Shown: positions 15,308 to 22,545 of the stretch, in pieces | How positions within the stretch are numbered: the stretch's first letter is position 1 | How the letters are laid out: the number at the start of each line of letters is the position of its first letter | NCBI RefSeq assembly: GCF_900156435.1 | Contig: NZ_FTPQ01000002.1 | Span: 62,001 to 126,000, forward strand | Direction of reading: 5' to 3' | Length of the DNA stretch: 64,000 nt | Origin: Microbacterium sp. RU1D | Lineage (GTDB): Bacteria > Actinomycetota > Actinomycetes > Actinomycetales > Microbacteriaceae | Translations under genes and position numbers: made by a program | The notes under the pieces: generated by a model | Databases searched by the model: none | Seen by the model: only the letters and a program-made list of their open reading frames with translations | Told to the model about the DNA's origin: nothing

Positions 15308-15781
15308 CTAGTTCTCCTCGCGCGCCAGCTGCATCAGCGGACCGACGCGGTAGCCGATGACCTCGCCCATCACGAGCGAGGTCTCGGTGCGTTCGACGCC
15401 CTCGATCGCGAGGATGCGCGCGTCGGTGTCGAAGAGGTGCTGCGTGTCGCGGCACGCCACCCGTACGAGCAGGTCGACCTGGCCGCTCAGCCCGTGCGCC
15501 TGCAGCACCTCGGGCACTTTCGCCAGCTCGTCGCGGATCGCGGGGAGCTCGGCCTGGCGCACCGTGACCTGCAGGAACGCCTCGATGGGGAATCCGAGCG
15601 CCTCGGCCGAGAGCGTGCGCTCGAACGACAGGAACACGCCTCCGCGTTCGAGGCGGCTCATGCGCGCCTGGACGGTGTTGCGCGAGAGGCCGAGCTTTTC
15701 GGCGAGCGCGACGACGGTGGCGCGCGGATCGGCGGACAGGGCGCGGAGGAGGTCGAGGTCGACCGCGTCGAGCTTGCTCAT
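15308..15781 (-). CDS. Lrp/AsnC family transcriptional regulator
   Basis: A 157-residue regulator. The N-terminal winged helix (MSKLDAVDLDLLRALSADPR, then LAEKLGLSRNTVQARMSRLE) is followed by a RAM/AsnC ligand-binding domain. ATG 15781 is the family start; it lies 8 nt after TAATGT. It is divergent from bkdA, and in actinobacteria and pseudomonads Lrp-type (BkdR) proteins control bkd operons, so it is the presumed branched-chain-amino-acid-responsive regulator of the next three genes. Confidence 0.88.
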   Translation of the reverse strand: MSKLDAVDLDLLRALSADPRATVVALAEKLGLSRNTVQARMSRLERGGVFLSFERTLSAEALGFPIEAFLQVTVRQAELPAIRDELAKVPEVLQAHGLSGQVDLLVRVACRDTQHLFDTDARILAIEGVERTETSLVMGEVIGYRVGPLMQLAREEN

Positions 15782-15789
15782 GCTGCGAA

Positions 15790-15795
15790 ACATTA
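15790..15795 (-). promoter_or_regulatory. Predicted -10 box of the Lrp-type regulator
   Basis: TAATGT on the minus strand, 8 nt before ATG 15781. Confidence 0.35.
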
Positions 15796-15827
15796 GCAGT
15801 GCCCCCACCCCGCGCAATGGGCACCTT

Positions 15828-15854
15828 GCTCAATATGACGGCGAGGTCTTGAGC
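15828..15854. promoter_or_regulatory. Candidate Lrp-type operator upstream of bkdA
   Basis: GCTCAA (15828-15833) and TTGAGC (15849-15854) form an inverted repeat with a 15-bp AT-richer centre between the regulator start and the TACGGT -10 box at 15872. Confidence 0.4.
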
Positions 15855-15871
15855 GGGGTGCATTCCGCGCG

Positions 15872-15877
15872 TACGGT
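15872..15877 (+). promoter_or_regulatory. Predicted -10 box of the bkd operon
   Basis: TACGGT, about 75 nt upstream of the bkdA start. Confidence 0.4.
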
Positions 15878-15958
15878 CGGCCACGTCGGCGCCGTTGCCG
15901 ACGCCCGGACCGCCCCGGCTCTCACGAGGAGCCGCGGGCCGCACCTGGAGGGATGACG

Positions 15959-17107
15959 ATGACGTACACCCAGACCACGCCGGATCACGGAGCCGCCGAC
16001 CGCGGATCCACCGGCACCCGCGGCGACGTGGACGACGTCTCGCGCCTGCTCGAGCCCGACGGCTCGCGCACCCCGGATGCCGAGCTCGACCCGTGGATCG
16101 CCGACCTCTCGCCGCACGAGCTGCGCGCCCTCCACCGCGACATGGTCCTCACCCGTCGCCTCGACGCCGAGGGCGTCGCTCTGCAGCGCCAGGGTCAGCT
16201 CGCCCTGTGGGCGCCGTGCCGCGGTCAGGAGGCCGTGCAGGTGGGCACCGCCCACGCCCTCGCTCCCGGCGACTTCGTCTTCCCCAGCTACCGCGAGCAC
16301 GGCGTGCTGCTCGGCCGCGGCGCGAAGCCCGCCGACTACGTGCTCGCCTGGCGCGGCGAGGAGCACTCCGCCTACGACCACACCACGATCAACGCGGCCC
16401 CGCCGCAGATCATCATCGGCGCGCAGTCGCTGCACGCGACCGGGTGGGCCATGGGCGCCCAGCGCGACGGCTCGACCGACGTCGCCGTGGCGTATTACGG
16501 CGACGGCGCCACCAGTCAGGGCGATGTCAACGAGGCGATGGTGTTCGCCTCGTCGTTCCGCGCCCCGGTGGTGTTCGTCTGCTCCAACAACCAGTGGGCG
16601 ATCAGCGAACCGGTCACCGTGCAGGCGAAGTACCCGATCGCGGGCCGGGCGCCGGGATTCGGCATCCCGAGCATGCGCGTCGACGGCAACGACGCCCTCG
16701 CGTGCGTCGCCGCGATGCGGTGGGCGCTCGACCGCGCCCGCCGCGGGGAGGGGCCCTCGTTCATCGAGGCCGTGACCTACCGCATGGGTCCGCACACCAC
16801 GAGCGACGACCCCACGCGGTACCGCGACGCCGACGAGGTCGAGGCGTGGTCGCAGCGCGACCCGATCGCCCGGCTCGAGGCATACCTGCGCGCCGAGGGC
16901 GTGCTCGACGACTCCGCCCTCGACGAGGTGGCGCGCGCCGCCGACGCCCTTGCCGCCGAGGTGCGCGCCGCGTGCATCGGCGCGACCACCCGCGCGCCCG
17001 AGACGATGTTCGACCACGTCTATGCCGAGCCCCACGCGGGTCTGGAGAGGCAGAAGGCCGCGTACGTCGACTACCTCGCGGGGTTCGAGCAGGAGGGCGC
17101 GCGATGA
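15959..17107 (+). CDS. bkdA: Branched-chain 2-oxoacid dehydrogenase E1 alpha subunit
   Basis: A 382-residue ThDP-dependent E1 alpha subunit that decarboxylates 2-oxoacids. The ThDP/Mg motif starts at GDG (about residue 181) and ends at the paired Asn of SNNQW; the phosphorylation-loop-like YRMGPHTTSDDP follows. ATG 15959 is chosen over ATG 15953 because GGAGGG directly abuts the latter and gives a 6-nt spacing to the former. E1 alpha alone cannot separate pyruvate from branched-chain substrates. The Lrp-type regulator and the downstream leucine operon favour the branched-chain enzyme. No E3 gene is present. Confidence 0.85.
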   Translation: MTYTQTTPDHGAADRGSTGTRGDVDDVSRLLEPDGSRTPDAELDPWIADLSPHELRALHRDMVLTRRLDAEGVALQRQGQLALWAPCRGQEAVQVGTAHALAPGDFVFPSYREHGVLLGRGAKPADYVLAWRGEEHSAYDHTTINAAPPQIIIGAQSLHATGWAMGAQRDGSTDVAVAYYGDGATSQGDVNEAMVFASSFRAPVVFVCSNNQWAISEPVTVQAKYPIAGRAPGFGIPSMRVDGNDALACVAAMRWALDRARRGEGPSFIEAVTYRMGPHTTSDDPTRYRDADEVEAWSQRDPIARLEAYLRAEGVLDDSALDEVARAADALAAEVRAACIGATTRAPETMFDHVYAEPHAGLERQKAAYVDYLAGFEQEGAR

Positions 17108-17187
17108 CGAGCATGACTCTCGGCTCGGCGCTCAACGCGGGCCTGTCGAAGGTGCTCGAGGCGGACGGGAAGGAGATCTCGCGATGA
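17104..17187 (+). CDS. Echo mini-ORF repeating the N-terminus of E1 beta
   Basis: A 27-residue frame begins MTSMTLGSALNAGLSK, closely matching the start of bkdB (MTALTLGSAINAGLSK). It has its own AGGAGG site and ATGA overlap with the bkdA stop, and its TGA overlaps the bkdB ATG. It ends in KEISR, whose DNA holds the AAGGAG site of bkdB. Many differences from bkdB are synonymous. It may be a remnant of a deleted second E1 beta gene or a translated coupling peptide. Confidence 0.7.
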   Translation: MTSMTLGSALNAGLSKVLEADGKEISR

Positions 17188-18185
17188 CCGCACTCACCCT
17201 GGGTTCCGCGATCAACGCGGGCCTGTCGAAGGCGCTCGAGGCGGACGAGAAGGTCCTCCTGATGGGCGAGGACATCGGTGCGCTGGGCGGCGTGTTCCGC
17301 GTCACCGACGGTCTGCAGCGGCGTTTCGGCGCGCAGCGCGTGGTCGACACGCCCCTCGCGGAGGCGGGCATCGTCGGCACCGCCGTCGGCCTCGCCCTGC
17401 GCGGCTACCGACCGGTCGTCGAGATCCAGTTCGACGGCTTCGTCTACCCGGCCTTCGACCAGATCGTCTGCCAGGTCGCCAAGCTGCACTACCGCAGCAG
17501 CGGCCGCATCCGGATGCCGCTGGTCATCCGCATCCCGTGGGCCGGGGGAGTCGGCGCGGCCGAGCACCACTCGGAATCGCCCGAGGCCTACTTCGTGCAC
17601 ACCGCGGGGCTGCGCGTGGTCGCGCCCAGCACCCCGCAGGACGCGTACGTCATGCTGCAGCAGGCCGTGGCATCCGATGACCCCGTCATCTTCTTCGAGC
17701 CCAAGCGCCTGTACCACTCCAAGGGCGAGGTGGATCTGGACGCGGACCTCGCCGACGCCCCGCCCCTGCACCTGGCCCGCGTCGCCCGCGAGGGCACCGA
17801 CGCCACGATCGTCACCTACGGCGCCCAGGTGCGCACGGCCCTCGATGCCGCGCTCGCCGCGGAGGACGAGGGGCTCTCGCTCGAGGTCGTCGACCTGCGC
17901 TCGCTCTCACCCATCGACATGAACACCGTCGCGGCATCCGTCCGCAAGACCGGGCGGGTCGTGGTGACGCACGAGGCCGCGCGGCAGGCGGGGGTCGGGG
18001 CGGAGCTCGTCGCGAGCATCACCGAGCAGTGCTTCGAATACCTCGAAGCGCCGCCCCAGCGCGTGACCGGGCACGACATCCCATACCCGCCGTCGAAGCT
18101 CGAGAAGCATCACGTGCCCGACCTCGATCGCATCCTGTACGCCGTCGACCGGGTGCTCGAGCGCGGGGAAGGGGTGCTGCGATGA
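17184..18185 (+). CDS. bkdB: Branched-chain 2-oxoacid dehydrogenase E1 beta subunit
   Basis: A 333-residue E1 beta subunit, partner of the preceding alpha subunit in the E1 heterotetramer. It has the conserved MGEDIGALGGVFRVTDGL and DTPLAEAGIVGTAVGLA motifs, PWAGGVGAAEHHSES, and the C-terminal transketolase domain with VVTHEAARQAGVGAE. Its ATG overlaps the stop of the preceding mini-ORF, with AAGGAG 8 nt upstream. Its stop overlaps the ATG of a second mini-ORF. Confidence 0.9.
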   Translation: MTALTLGSAINAGLSKALEADEKVLLMGEDIGALGGVFRVTDGLQRRFGAQRVVDTPLAEAGIVGTAVGLALRGYRPVVEIQFDGFVYPAFDQIVCQVAKLHYRSSGRIRMPLVIRIPWAGGVGAAEHHSESPEAYFVHTAGLRVVAPSTPQDAYVMLQQAVASDDPVIFFEPKRLYHSKGEVDLDADLADAPPLHLARVAREGTDATIVTYGAQVRTALDAALAAEDEGLSLEVVDLRSLSPIDMNTVAASVRKTGRVVVTHEAARQAGVGAELVASITEQCFEYLEAPPQRVTGHDIPYPPSKLEKHHVPDLDRILYAVDRVLERGEGVLR

Positions 18186-18286
18186 TCGAGGAGCACACGC
18201 CGTCGATTCACCTCGTTCGTCGGCTGACGCGTGTCGCGCGCTCGCCGCGGATCCGTTTCGTCCTCGGTGAAGGGGGCGCTCGATGA
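18182..18286 (+). CDS. Second echo mini-ORF before bkdC
   Basis: A 34-codon frame, MIEEHTPSIHLVRRL followed by an Arg-rich tail, opens on an ATGA overlap with the bkdB stop and ends in a TGA overlapping the bkdC ATG. Its first 12 nt (ATGATCGAGGAG) and the purine-rich ribosome-binding region before it repeat the corresponding positions of bkdC at 18283. Beyond MIEE there is no similarity. Translation is plausible; function is unknown. Confidence 0.5.
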   Translation: MIEEHTPSIHLVRRLTRVARSPRIRFVLGEGGAR

Positions 18287-19764
18287 TCGAGGAGTTCCTG
18301 CTGCCGGATCTCGGCGAGGGTCTCCCGGAGGCCGAGATCGTCGCGTGGCTCGTCGCCGAGGGCGACGTCGTGAGGCTCAACCAGACCATCGCCGAGGTCG
18401 AGACGGCCAAGGCGGTCGTCGAGATCCCCTCGCCCTACGCCGGAACCGTGCAGGGGCTGCACGCGGCCGCCGGCGACGTTGTCGCGGTCGGCTCGCCGCT
18501 GGTGTCGTTCGCCGTGGGCGGGGCGGAGGCGAAGGATCCGGCGCCCGAGCGCGCGGCCGGGGCCGGAGTGACGGGGGTCGGAGCCGCCGGGGCCGGGGTG
18601 ACGGGCTCTGGCGCCGCCGGGGTCGGGGCCGGGGCGCCCGGAGCCGTCGCGGCCGGAGCCACCGCCGACGAGGCCGAGCGGGCGACGCCCAACCTCGTCG
18701 GCTACGGCGCCGCGCCCTCCACCGGCAGCCGGCCGACGCGTCGCGCCCGCGGCGGCGGCTCGACCGCCACGCTCGACGCCGACACGGCCGTCCGCGAGGC
18801 CGCGCCGCACGACGTCGTGCGCACGGGACCGATCGATCTGCCGCTCGAGCGTCCGCGCTCGACGCCGCCGGTGCGCAAGCTCGCGAAAGACCTCGGGGTC
18901 GACCTCGTGCTCGTCGCGGCCGCCCACCCGGGCGAGGCCGTGACGCGCGCGCACGTCGAGGAATACGCGGCGCGGGAGCCCGCGGCATCCGTCGCCCCCT
19001 CCACCCCCGCGTCGAGGGTCCCCCCGGCTGCGTCCGCCTCCGTCGCCCGCCCGGCTCCCGGCGAGCGGGTCACCCGTACGCCCATCCGCGGCGTGCGCAA
19101 GCACACGGCGGCCGCGATGGTGCAGAGCGCGTTCACCGCTCCGCACGCGACGACCTTCCTCACGCTCGACGTCACCGCGACGACCGAGCTGCTGGCATCC
19201 CTGAAGACCGACCGCGCTCTCGACGGGCACCGGATCGGCGTGCTGGCCGTGGTCGCGAAGGCCGTGTGCCTGGCCCTCGGGCGCACGCCGGCGCTGAACG
19301 CGCGGTGGGACGAGGCCGCCGGCGAGATCATCGAGCACCACTACGTGAACCTCGGCATCGCGGCCGCGACCGACCGCGGTCTCGTCGTGCCGGTCGTGCG
19401 GGATGCCGAGCGCCTTGCACTCGTCGACCTCGCTGATGCGATCGCGGAGCTCGCCGGTACCGCCCGCGCCGGACGCACCGCGCCGGCCGACATGACGGGT
19501 GGGACGTTCTCGATCACGAACGTCGGGGTGTTCGGGGTGGATGCCGGAACCCCCATCCTCAACCCGGGAGAGGCCGGGATCCTCGCCGTCGGCGCCGTAC
19601 GGCGCACGCCGTGGGAGCACCGGGGCGAGATCGCGCTGCGCGACGTGCTGACCCTCAGCCTGTCGTTCGACCACCGCGTGGTTGACGGGGCCGAGGCGGC
19701 GCGGTTCCTGACCGACGTCGCGGGCGTGCTGCGCGAGCCCGGTCGGGCGATGCTGCTGCGCTGA
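18283..19764 (+). CDS. bkdC: Dihydrolipoamide acyltransferase E2 of the 2-oxoacid dehydrogenase complex
   Basis: A 493-residue E2 core subunit. One lipoyl domain (1-85) has the attachment Lys43 in VETAKAVVE. A Gly/Ala-rich linker contains repeats of GVTGxGAAGAG. The E1/E3-binding domain (VRKLAKDLGVDL, about 200) is followed by a second Ala/Pro linker and the catalytic domain ending in the active-site motif HRVVDG (His about 464). It transfers the acyl group from E1 to CoA. E3 must come from elsewhere in the genome. The linker is longer than in many E2 proteins. Confidence 0.92.
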   Translation: MIEEFLLPDLGEGLPEAEIVAWLVAEGDVVRLNQTIAEVETAKAVVEIPSPYAGTVQGLHAAAGDVVAVGSPLVSFAVGGAEAKDPAPERAAGAGVTGVGAAGAGVTGSGAAGVGAGAPGAVAAGATADEAERATPNLVGYGAAPSTGSRPTRRARGGGSTATLDADTAVREAAPHDVVRTGPIDLPLERPRSTPPVRKLAKDLGVDLVLVAAAHPGEAVTRAHVEEYAAREPAASVAPSTPASRVPPAASASVARPAPGERVTRTPIRGVRKHTAAAMVQSAFTAPHATTFLTLDVTATTELLASLKTDRALDGHRIGVLAVVAKAVCLALGRTPALNARWDEAAGEIIEHHYVNLGIAAATDRGLVVPVVRDAERLALVDLADAIAELAGTARAGRTAPADMTGGTFSITNVGVFGVDAGTPILNPGEAGILAVGAVRRTPWEHRGEIALRDVLTLSLSFDHRVVDGAEAARFLTDVAGVLREPGRAMLLR

Positions 19765-19783
19765 GGGACCCGGGCGGAACGAC

Positions 19784-19849
19784 CCGTCGAGTGTCCAGGA
19801 CATGCCGTCGGTGCGGGGGTGACGGCGGCGTGTCTCGGACACTCGACGG
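19784..19849. repeat. Dispersed palindromic repeat family A, copy 1
   Basis: Arms 19784-19807 and 19826-19849 pair at 21 of 24 positions around an 18-nt loop. The arm core is GTCGAGTGTCCAGGACA. Further copies lie near 30081-30195 and 61995-62056. Here it separates the convergent bkdC and tetR genes and could act as a bidirectional terminator. Confidence 0.85.
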
Positions 19850-19886
19850 ATGGGCGCGAGGGGCGGGACCGGCGCGACGCGGGCGG

Positions 19887-20714
19887 TCAGGCCGTCAAGG
19901 CGGCCAGCGCCATGCGCGTCAGCGTCGGGCGCACGCGCGACGTCGGAACGCCGCGCACGCTGTGGGGTGTCGAGTTGATGAGGCCGAAGCACGCGAGAGC
20001 GCGCACGCGCCGTTCGGCGGGGGTCTCGGCATCCGGACTCTCCGCCGCCATCGCGTCGGTCCAGACCGCGACGTAGGCGTTCTGCAGGAGGCGCACCGTG
20101 CGGCGGTCGTCGGGGGCGAGGCGGTCGAGGTCGCGGTCCTGCACGCGGATGACGTCGGCCTCGGCGAGCGCGAACGCGACGTGGAAGTCGACGAGGGCGG
20201 CGAGGGATCCGGATGCCGTGCGGGCAGGGCCGCGGGCGTCCTCGGCGACACAGCGGGTGGGGGTGGGCTCGATGGGTGTTCCCGCCGGTGTGCTCGGGCT
20301 GGGGGTCGCACTCTCCGGCGGGAGGTGCGCGGCGGCGACCGCCCGCCCGCCCGTGAGCAGGCGTTCGCTGACGTCGACGAGGATCGCGCCGAGGAGTGCC
20401 TGCTTGCTCGCGACGTGCCGGTAGACGGCGGGTCCGCTGACCCCGGCGGCCTCGCCGATGTCGCCGAGGGTGACGCCGTCGAAACCCCGCTCGGCGAACA
20501 GGCGGGCGGCGGCGGCGAGGAGTGCGGCACGGCGCTCGGCCTTCGCGCGGTCGCGGGCGGTGGTCGGGGGAGTGGCGGCCGGTGCGAGGCCCGGCCCCGA
20601 GGCGGGGGTCGATGCCGGGGCGGTGGTCGAGGGGGCGGGTTCCGTGCGCTCACGGGGCGGCGCGGGAGCATCGTCTCCGCTCGCGGCGCGAGAGGGGTCG
20701 GGAGGTCTTGTCAT
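19887..20714 (-). CDS. TetR family regulator of the leucine-degradation operon
   Basis: A regulator of about 275 residues with an unusually long Pro/Ala/Thr-rich N-terminal extension (about 50 residues). The TetR helix-turn-helix follows (ALLAAAARLFAERGFDGVTLGDIGEAAGVSGPAVYRH), then a divergent ligand domain interrupted by a Pro/Thr insert. ATG 20714 or 20720 are both possible. It is transcribed away from the carboxylase operon across a 22-bp palindrome, so it most likely represses that operon and itself in response to an acyl-CoA or branched-chain metabolite. Confidence 0.85.
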   Translation of the reverse strand: MTRPPDPSRAASGDDAPAPPRERTEPAPSTTAPASTPASGPGLAPAATPPTTARDRAKAERRAALLAAAARLFAERGFDGVTLGDIGEAAGVSGPAVYRHVASKQALLGAILVDVSERLLTGGRAVAAAHLPPESATPSPSTPAGTPIEPTPTRCVAEDARGPARTASGSLAALVDFHVAFALAEADVIRVQDRDLDRLAPDDRRTVRLLQNAYVAVWTDAMAAESPDAETPAERRVRALACFGLINSTPHSVRGVPTSRVRPTLTRMALAALTA

Positions 20715-20764: not shown

Positions 20765-20811
20765 AATCGACGGGGCTGTCGACGATGCGGCCACCGGAAC
20801 GGAAAGCCGCC

Positions 20812-22545
20812 ATGAGCACAGCACCGGATTCGTCCGCAGGGATCGCGGACACAGCGCCTGCAACCGCAGCGCCTGCACACGCAGCCCCCACCGCCGAACA
20901 GCCCGCGGGCGCCGCGCCCGCTGCACGCCCCGCGGGCGCCGAGCCCGCGGCCCCAGCCCCCGGCCCCGACGACCTCGCCCGACGCGCGACCGCACCGACC
21001 CAGCGCGACCTCGCAGCCGCCCTCCGCGCCACCCTCGCCCGCACCGCGCGCGGGGGCTCCGACGCCGCCCGCGAGCGGCACACGGCGCGGGGCAAGCTCC
21101 TCGCCCGCGACCGCATCGATCGCCTGCTCGACGAGGGTAGCCCCTTCCTCGAGGTCGCCCCGCTCGCCGCCCACGGTCTGTACGACGGCGGCGCTCCGGC
21201 CGCGGGGGTCGTCGCCGGCATCGGTCTCGTGCACGGGCGGCACGTGATGGTCGTCGCCAACGACGCGACGGTGAAGGGAGGCGCCTATTTCCCGCTGACG
21301 GTGAAGAAGCACCTGCGCGCGCAGGAAATCGCGCTCGACAACCGCCTGCCGTGCGTCTACCTCGTCGACTCCGGGGGAGCGTTCCTGCCGATGCAGGACG
21401 AGGTGTTCCCCGACCGCGACCACTTCGGTCGCATCTTCCGCAACCAGGCGCAGTTGTCGGCGCGCGGCGTCCCGCAGATCGCCGCGGTGATGGGCTCCTG
21501 CACGGCGGGAGGCGCGTACGTCCCGGCGATGAGCGACGAGAGCGTGATCGTGCGGGGCCAGGGCACGGTGTTCCTCGGCGGGCCGCCCTTGGTGAAGGCC
21601 GCCATCGGCGAGGACGTCACCGCTGAGCAGCTCGGCGGCGGCGACCTGCACGCGCGTCGCTCGGGAGTGGTCGACCACCTCGCCGACGACGACGAGCACG
21701 CCCTCGAGATCGTGCGCGACATCGTCGCGACCCTCCCTCCGACGCCGGCGCCGGTGTGGCAGGTCGAGGAGCCCGCGGAGCCCGCGCGCGATCCGCAAGA
21801 CCTCTACGGCCTCGTCCCGGCCGACGTCGCGCAGCCCGTCGACATGCGCGCGATCATCGACACCCTCGTCGACGCCGCCTCCCTGCACGAGTTCAAGGCG
21901 CTCTACGGCGAGAGCGTCATCACGACCTTCGCGCGCCTGCACGGGCACCCGGTCGCGATCATCGCGAACGACGGCGTGCTCTTCAGCGAGTCGGCCCTGA
22001 AGGCGGCGCACTTCATCGAGCTCGCCGACCAGCGCGGCATCCCCCTGCTGTTCCTGCAGAACATCACCGGCTTCATGGTGGGGCGGGATGCCGAGGCCGG
22101 CGGCATCGCGAAGGACGGCGCCAAGATGGTCACCGCCGTCGCCACCACGCGCGTGCCCAAGCTCACCGTCCTCGTCGGTGGGTCGTACGGCGCCGGCAAC
22201 TACGCCATGTGCGGTCGCGCCTATGATCCGCGGTTCCTGTGGACCTGGCCCGCGAGCCGCATCTCGGTGATGGGCGGTGCGCAAGCGGCATCCGTCCTCT
22301 CCACCGTCCAGCGCGATCAGCGCGCCGCCCGGGGCGAGGAGTGGACGGATGCCGAGCAGCGCGCGTTCGAAGAGCCCATCCGCGCCCGCTACGAGGAGCA
22401 GGGCGACCCGTACTACGCCACCGCCCGCCTGTGGGACGACGGCGTGATCGATCCCGTCGACACGCGCACGATGCTGGGGCTCGCCCTCGACGTCGTCAGC
22501 CGCGTCCCGCTGGCCGACCGGGGCTTCGGCCTCTTCCGGATGTGA
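20812..22545 (+). CDS. accD1: Acyl-CoA carboxylase carboxyltransferase subunit (methylcrotonyl-CoA type)
   Basis: A 577-residue beta subunit. The first 55 residues are a low-complexity Ala/Pro tail, then the two crotonase-like carboxyltransferase halves. The N half has [17 protein letters not shown] and [18 protein letters not shown]; the C half has the acyl-CoA site [16 protein letters not shown]. It transfers CO2 from biotin to an acyl-CoA, most likely 3-methylcrotonyl-CoA from leucine. ATG 20812 follows GGAAAG; ATG 20785 lacks one. Its stop overlaps the next gene start (GTGA). The mycobacterial counterpart is accD1. Confidence 0.9.

Follow-up and report, generated by a model that had tools for sequence, protein, structure and literature searches.

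The 64,000-nucleotide (nt) stretch of Microbacterium sp. RU1D analysed here, referred to as the window (G000:C5:62001-126000, G000 being the genome that it belongs to), carries a 2-oxoacid dehydrogenase operon for the subunits E1-alpha, E1-beta and E2. The intergenic gaps between E1-alpha and E1-beta (76 nt, the first border) and between E1-beta and E2 (97 nt, the second border) are filled by two short open reading frames (ORFs), mini-1 and mini-2. Stop and next start overlap as ATGA at all four junctions of this series (4/4), the 4-nt overlap of a coupled gene pair. A preliminary description, made from the sequence alone, gave the coordinates, lengths and four overlaps of both mini-ORFs exactly, and their presence is confirmed. 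Comparison with related genomes suggests that they are linker cistrons, probably derived from duplicated gene junctions, which would relay ribosomes from one subunit gene to the next. The parts of the locus are as follows (aa, amino acids; all on the + strand).

15953..17107, +: E1-alpha (bkdA-like), 384 aa; stop overlaps the mini-1 start (ATGA); TIGR03181 above cut-off
17075..17154, +: junction repeat of 80 nt, copy 1 (repeat finder); E1-alpha tail with ribosome-binding region, and mini-1 start
17104..17187, +: mini-1 linker ORF, 27 aa; echoes the E1-beta start; AAGGAG shortly 5' of the closing ATGA
17155..17234, +: junction repeat of 80 nt, copy 2; mini-1 tail and E1-beta start; 74% identity
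17184..18185, +: E1-beta (bkdB-like), 333 aa
18157..18193, +: junction repeat of 37 nt, copy 1 (repeat finder); E1-beta tail and mini-2 start
18182..18286, +: mini-2 linker ORF, 34 aa; starts ATGATCGAGGAG, the same as E2; 101-nt unit
18258..18294, +: junction repeat of 37 nt, copy 2; mini-2 tail and E2 start; 76% identity
18283..19764, +: E2 (bkdC-like), 493 aa; NCBIfam matches all below cut-offs

The operon name bkd is plausible but not proven. TIGR03181, whose cut-off E1-alpha passes, names pyruvate dehydrogenase, and the E1-beta matches lie below their cut-offs.

The start of each mini-ORF echoes that of the following gene. Mini-1 shares 18 of the first 24 residues of E1-beta, a match that the preliminary description had counted correctly. 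Its mention of many synonymous differences was half right: 11 codons differ there, five synonymously and six nonsynonymously. At the nucleotide level 55 of 68 positions are alike, after which mini-1 closes with AAGGAG...ATGA. The likeness is a mosaic, with 19 of the first 30 nt identical and then 36 of 38 (Fisher p 0.0015). Mini-2 repeats the start and ribosome-binding region of E2, as had been claimed; ATGATCGAGGAG agrees at 12/12 nt, followed by divergence (21/30). Direct repeats around both minis take in the preceding ribosome-binding region: 80 nt at 74% with a spacing of exactly 80 around mini-1, and 37 nt at 76% with a spacing of 101 around mini-2. Because these exact-period repeats take in the start of the following gene as well as the end of the preceding one, each mini appears to be a duplicated junction; the likeness to the upstream tail is less clear than that to the downstream start. 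Echo scores over 30 nt are 0.63 and 0.70, against a 99th percentile of 0.60 for random gene-start pairs of G000. Among 26 other mini-ORFs in a 1.264 Mb sample of G000 (about 37% of the genome; coding-score gene caller), none reaches 0.60 and the highest scores 0.53. In the Microbacterium testaceum clade, defined below, a mosaic of head plus tail beats random G000 junctions (p <= 0.015) in 8/15 first-border and 8/13 second-border units. We infer that recognisable echoes mark the younger or less worn linkers.

The preliminary description had suggested that the first copy could have been left by a deleted paralogue. A remnant of a second E1-beta or E2 gene would explain the likeness of mini-1 to roughly the first 23 codons of E1-beta. 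The likeness ends at about that codon, however, without extending into a lost gene body; the exact 80-nt period includes the upstream tail, one related locus (L005) has two tandem 80-nt units, and at none of the clade junctions displayed is there a longer partial paralogue. This candidate was rejected and is very improbable.

The history of the minis was followed in 366 genomes of the genus, which were searched with E1-alpha, the junctions being read in the retrieved loci. The clade was delimited by an E1-alpha identity of at least 80.5%; with identical junctions counted once, 35 rows remain. Named members include M. testaceum NS220, TPD7010 and NBRC 12675, and M. proteolyticum CECT 8356. For the second border, 33 rows were left after exclusion of L033 and L129 at contig ends; L146 (G315), a partial contig, fell outside the clade. 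Inserts occur at the first border in 14/35 rows and at the second in 12/33, the remainder being plain overlaps (21/35 and 21/33). First-border units measure 80, 77, 65, 62, 56 or 53 nt from start to start. At the second border ten loci have one 59-nt unit, one locus has two, and the window has its 101-nt unit. Tandem double linkers are thus found at either border: the two 80-nt units of L005 are alike at 79/80 nt, and the two 59-nt units of L038 at the second border have diverged. A 1-nt overlap links the insert to E1-beta in L018; every other first or last link at the two borders has 4 nt. The preliminary description would have taken absence of the minis from close relatives, without conservation of frame, as its refutation. 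Absence is indeed frequent, but the frame is kept in 26/26 inserts, the opposite of that outcome.

Outside the clade, second-border minis were seen in five members of the genus (L151, L022, L207, L030 and L023), all open and coupled. The tandem linkers of L023 measure 53 and 59 nt, consist mostly of shared sequence and have starts unlike that of E2. In a tree built from E1-alpha and E1-beta (39 rows, without the junction parts), presence of the minis changes nine times at each border, and the sister pairs L133/L135 and L139/L142 differ. The second mini is absent from L133 and present in its close kin L135, L008 and L005; it is absent from L142 and present in L139 and L141. By parsimony, the absences in L133 and L142 are losses. 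Double units and differing sister species suggest that copies are gained, doubled and lost, probably through exchange between the direct repeats, which would also restore a simple junction. A check of apparent exceptions set aside L100, L101, L098, L109, L095, L099 and some rows of other genera with poor start estimates. Judged by eye, L208, L062, L076, L077, L081 and L193 look like N-terminal extensions rather than inserts. In L214, E1-alpha is apparently frameshifted near its 3' end, either genuinely or through an assembly error.

Unit length varies widely and the reading frame does not. All 28 clade units (27 distinct; 53, 56, 59, 62, 65, 77, 80 or 101 nt) have a length of 2 mod 3. An in-frame stop occurs in 0/27 distinct units; the second frame is stopped in 27/27 by the ATGA itself, and the third is stopped in 4/27 and open in 23/27. 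Because open frames are common in GC-rich DNA, the weight of evidence rests on frame length. The encoded peptides diverge far more freely. The pooled ratio of nonsynonymous to synonymous differences (pN/pS) is 0.61 for second-border minis (six pairs; 0.88 in codons 6-15) and 0.72 for first-border minis (three pairs), compared with 0.05 and 0.07 for the E1-beta gene, the latter over five pairs. These comparisons indicate that selection keeps the frame and that the mini peptide is close to free.

This bears on a selected attenuation peptide, which the preliminary description had offered as its other explanation. Leader peptides for attenuation by branched-chain amino acids would fit short ORFs in an operon that adjoins a suitable regulator:

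15308..15817, -: divergent Lrp/AsnC-type regulator, adjoining the operon upstream; matches below curated cut-offs

The minis lie inside the operon, however, and by inspection contain no runs of Leu, Ile or Val. The hypervariable peptides (pooled pN/pS 0.6-0.9) amount to no conserved product, and Rfam gives 0 matches in window positions 15700-20000. On the strength of the unconserved peptide, the absent codon runs and the Rfam result, an attenuating leader was rejected and has next to no probability.

Chains of overlaps were followed at five junctions: the two bkd borders (AB and BC); X4, the prpD-prpB pair; X2, a sugar ABC ATPase-permease pair; and X1, the junction before an amidase-type gene, the upstream gene of which has no match in the family search. 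For X2, 7 of 30 loci (L361-L390) had full-length matches and were used; the other 23 matches are weak or partial and probably represent paralogues. Loci for X1 and X4 came from 30 of 34 searched genomes. Together X1, X2 and X4 contribute 67 junctions, 16 with plain overlaps and 51 with inserts. In every one of those inserts (51/51) the overlap chain is complete, and four have two units. Over all five junctions the chain is complete in 77/77 insert-bearing clade junctions (AB 14/14, BC 12/12, X2 5/5, X4 19/19, X1 27/27), in gaps of 49-426 nt. A frame-shift control, lenient because the downstream gene may use any in-frame start, predicts 7.3/14, 5.8/12, 1.0/5, 10.1/19 and 11.1/27, respectively. 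First and last links overlap by 4 or 1 nt in 77/77 chains, and at AB, BC, X2 and X4 the chain ends exactly at the homology-expected start (50/50). The same rule therefore appears to hold at other coupled junctions of the clade.

Individual junctions show further features. Inserts at prpD-prpB (L391-L420) occur in 19/30 clade loci, with gaps of 67-397 nt and complete chains throughout. The insert of L398 contains the inverted repeat AACTCCTGAAG / CTTCAGGAGTT, and L403 has the same with one mismatch. Several prpD-prpB inserts have RFFRSCAH-like C-terminal peptides in common, as if a small repeat element had entered. At X1 the inserts of many relatives have a common N-terminus, and they may include a real small gene.

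A survey of the G000 sample points in the same direction. It contains 252 same-strand gaps of 20-160 nt, and 22 of them hold complete overlap-to-overlap linkers, the two bkd minis included. Random deletions of 1-2 nt lead to an expectation of 6.1 (standard deviation 2.0, at most 12 in any of 300 runs). For G184, a genome of the genus outside the clade, the sample is 0.8 Mb; there 3/161 gaps are linkers and 4.0 are expected; the restriction to the clade thus rests on this one outgroup genome. At least one of the 22 G000 linkers, encoding a 51-aa hydrophobic peptide, resembles a real small protein. Examples from G000 are:

C7:214168-214245, -: linker
C7:145703-145762, -: linker
C7:702090-702173, +: linker

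Interspersed palindromes were considered as a source of linkers by counting two motifs. The GTGTCC type occurs 12 times in the G000 sample, against 3.3 expected, and once in that of G184, against 2.1. The AACTCCTGAAG motif of some relatives is absent from both samples, and a search for the GTGTCC motif in paired arms gave none. Shortly 3' of E2, at window positions 19788-19845, lies an inverted repeat, CGAGTGTCC...GGACACTCG, with a GTGTCC-type core. By eye, the X1 linker of L332 repeats both of its arms and the X1 linker of G000 one of them. Farther downstream, the best NCBIfam match of the gene at 20785-22545 is mmdA, below cut-off; we take its product to be an acyl-CoA carboxylase-type subunit. 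The odds are about even that the M. testaceum clade has linker cistrons genome-wide, every tolerated insert being nearly peptide-neutral and overlapping both neighbours. Gain and loss of linkers at coupled junctions through junction duplication or small repeats would belong to this picture, and there too the balance could tip either way.

The counts also bear on a neutral account, in which junction duplications are debris that lies in frame by accident, without selection. Almost free divergence of the peptides, the coming and going of the minis and a third frame that is open in most units are all what such debris would show. Yet 77 of 77 inserts keep complete chains despite widely differing lengths, and the genome sample holds several times the number of linkers predicted under frame shift. 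Pure debris is accordingly quite improbable.

The reading preferred here, to which we assign a probability of roughly three in four, is that the mini-ORFs are linker cistrons from junction duplication, which would relay termination-reinitiation. Ribosomes probably reach E1-beta and E2 through termination-reinitiation at the 4-nt overlaps. (i) A short tandem duplication of the coupled stop/start junction would start the process, as the recognisable copies show. The duplicated stretch runs from the ribosome-binding tail of the upstream gene through the ATGA overlap into the opening codons of the gene that follows. (ii) Given the presumed dependence of E1-beta and E2 on termination-reinitiation, an insert would be tolerated only if it formed an open frame joined by overlaps at both ends, its start to the stop upstream and its stop to the start downstream. 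The duplicated junction supplies ribosome-binding tail, stop and start in one piece. (iii) A ribosome finishing E1-alpha would then translate the mini-ORF from start to stop before initiating on E1-beta; loss of the unbroken chain would presumably be costly. The coupled chain bkdA, mini-1, bkdB, mini-2, bkdC of the preliminary description is in this respect borne out by the overlaps, with passage of the ribosome as the likely consequence. A relay through duplicated junctions would explain structure, strict frame, free peptide and patchy presence together. Published reporter work agrees with this (PMC10666635). In Haloferax volcanii and Escherichia coli a gap of about 20 nt nearly abolished coupling, with a gene-specific spread; of three E. 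coli pairs with a 38-nt gap, two lost 80-90% of their coupling and one lost all of it. For coupling, the final 15 nt of the upstream gene are enough, and subunits of heteromeric complexes are over-represented among overlapping pairs. If the published gap effect is valid here, an insert of at least 49 nt would uncouple E1-beta or E2 unless overlapped at both ends.

Several points weigh against the linker reading. Translation of the minis is deduced from sequence comparison. Chance alone would leave 22.5/27 units open in such GC-rich DNA, so open-frame status by itself was rejected as evidence. The related rows are non-independent trials, and X1, X2 and X4 were picked because G000 has a linker there. 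X1 is the weaker junction, since only 12/27 of its chains end at the homology-expected start. The pN/pS pairs are related and hand-picked, and values for individual mini pairs lie between 0.18 and 1.23, one pair being without synonymous change; some constraint on the peptide is therefore possible. The head-plus-tail mosaic goes undetected in 7/15 first-border and 5/13 second-border clade units and in 6/6 non-clade units, so some linkers may have another origin. In a rank test the echo of the unit's own gene start exceeds that of foreign ones in only 4/15 first-border and 1/13 second-border units. Because this ranking is mixed, concerted evolution of a mini with its own gene was rejected as a general rule and is not claimed.

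An adaptive role could be added to the relay without contradicting it. Each mini might be retained for changing the E1-alpha : E1-beta : E2 ratio, like an engineered bicistronic design, for example if E1-beta gained from it a stronger ribosome-binding site or less structure at its start. Predicted ribosome-binding energy before E1-beta averages -11.8 kcal/mol with a mini and -9.3 without (p 0.012), and at both borders loci with a mini have less predicted structure around the start (p 0.04 and 0.03). None of the p values in these comparisons takes account of multiple testing or of kinship. Before E2 the energies do not differ (-12.5 with a mini, -13.6 plain, p 0.14), and a within-locus comparison of the two first-border sites reaches only p 0.08. 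The nine changes per border and the many plain first borders (21/35) argue against a steady benefit, and tuning by the minis is possible but doubtful.

The architectural rule thus appears real and the peptide unremarkable, and the rule apparently applies in further operons of the clade as well. The dependence of overlapping pairs on ribosome hand-over has so far been tested mostly with reporters. Natural selection seems to have repeated the experiment: inserts enter, the bkd peptides drift, and the chain is unbroken in 77 junctions. If the linker reading is true, the need for unbroken termination-reinitiation becomes testable by genome comparison, a class of short ORFs is explained, and natural mini-cistrons become available for expression design. 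Should the genome-wide extension be true as well, it would constitute an evolutionary record that selection sees ribosome hand-over rather than the spacer peptide.

Open-access literature, judged by title and abstract start among the matches listed, has no description of such linkers in Microbacterium. The earlier statement that no system of this kind had been described was nevertheless too strong, as mycobacterial interspersed repetitive units (MIRUs; Supply et al. 1997, as cited in PMC12548453) and engineered bicistronic designs are arranged for coupling in a similar way (PMC12548453). A mobile repeat of MIRU type, bringing its own linker ORF into stop/start overlaps, would share with the bkd minis the coupling of an ORF to its neighbours by short overlaps. 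It would also account for variable tandem units (two of 80 nt in L005, two of 59 nt in L038, one or none elsewhere) and for long inserts at two other junctions, some with inverted repeats by eye. MIRUs vary in copy number and are dispersed among many loci, with 41 counted in one strain (PMC2734929). The bkd minis, in contrast, are single-copy in G000: neither has a second dispersed copy there, and the only strong second match of mini-1 is the E1-beta start. The recognisable minis are moreover built from their own flanking genes. Compared by layout and copy number, they are not classed as MIRUs, because they are not dispersed, and descent from such an element is unlikely. Gene pairs coupled by termination-reinitiation likewise overlap as ATGA or TGATG, an arrangement that is over-represented between subunits of heteromeric complexes (PMC10666635; PMC6728339); the difference here is an extra, nearly peptide-neutral cistron that is interposed and held in frame. 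Leader genes, short ORFs without a stable product close before a gene, have been proposed to increase translation through reinitiation. They do not overlap annotated genes and their distance peaks at 10-11 bp (PMC4833913), whereas the bkd minis lie within an operon and overlap by 4 or 1 nt at both ends. Bicistronic designs and ribosome-delivering short ORFs likewise couple a short first cistron to a gene start (PMC12548453; PMC5995908). As in such couplers, the predicted ribosome-binding site of the next gene lies in the mini, with mean predicted energies of -11.8 kcal/mol before E1-beta (14 loci) and -12.5 before E2 (12 loci). The bkd minis differ from these designs in being natural and intra-operonic, and in arising, it appears, by duplication of the junction itself.

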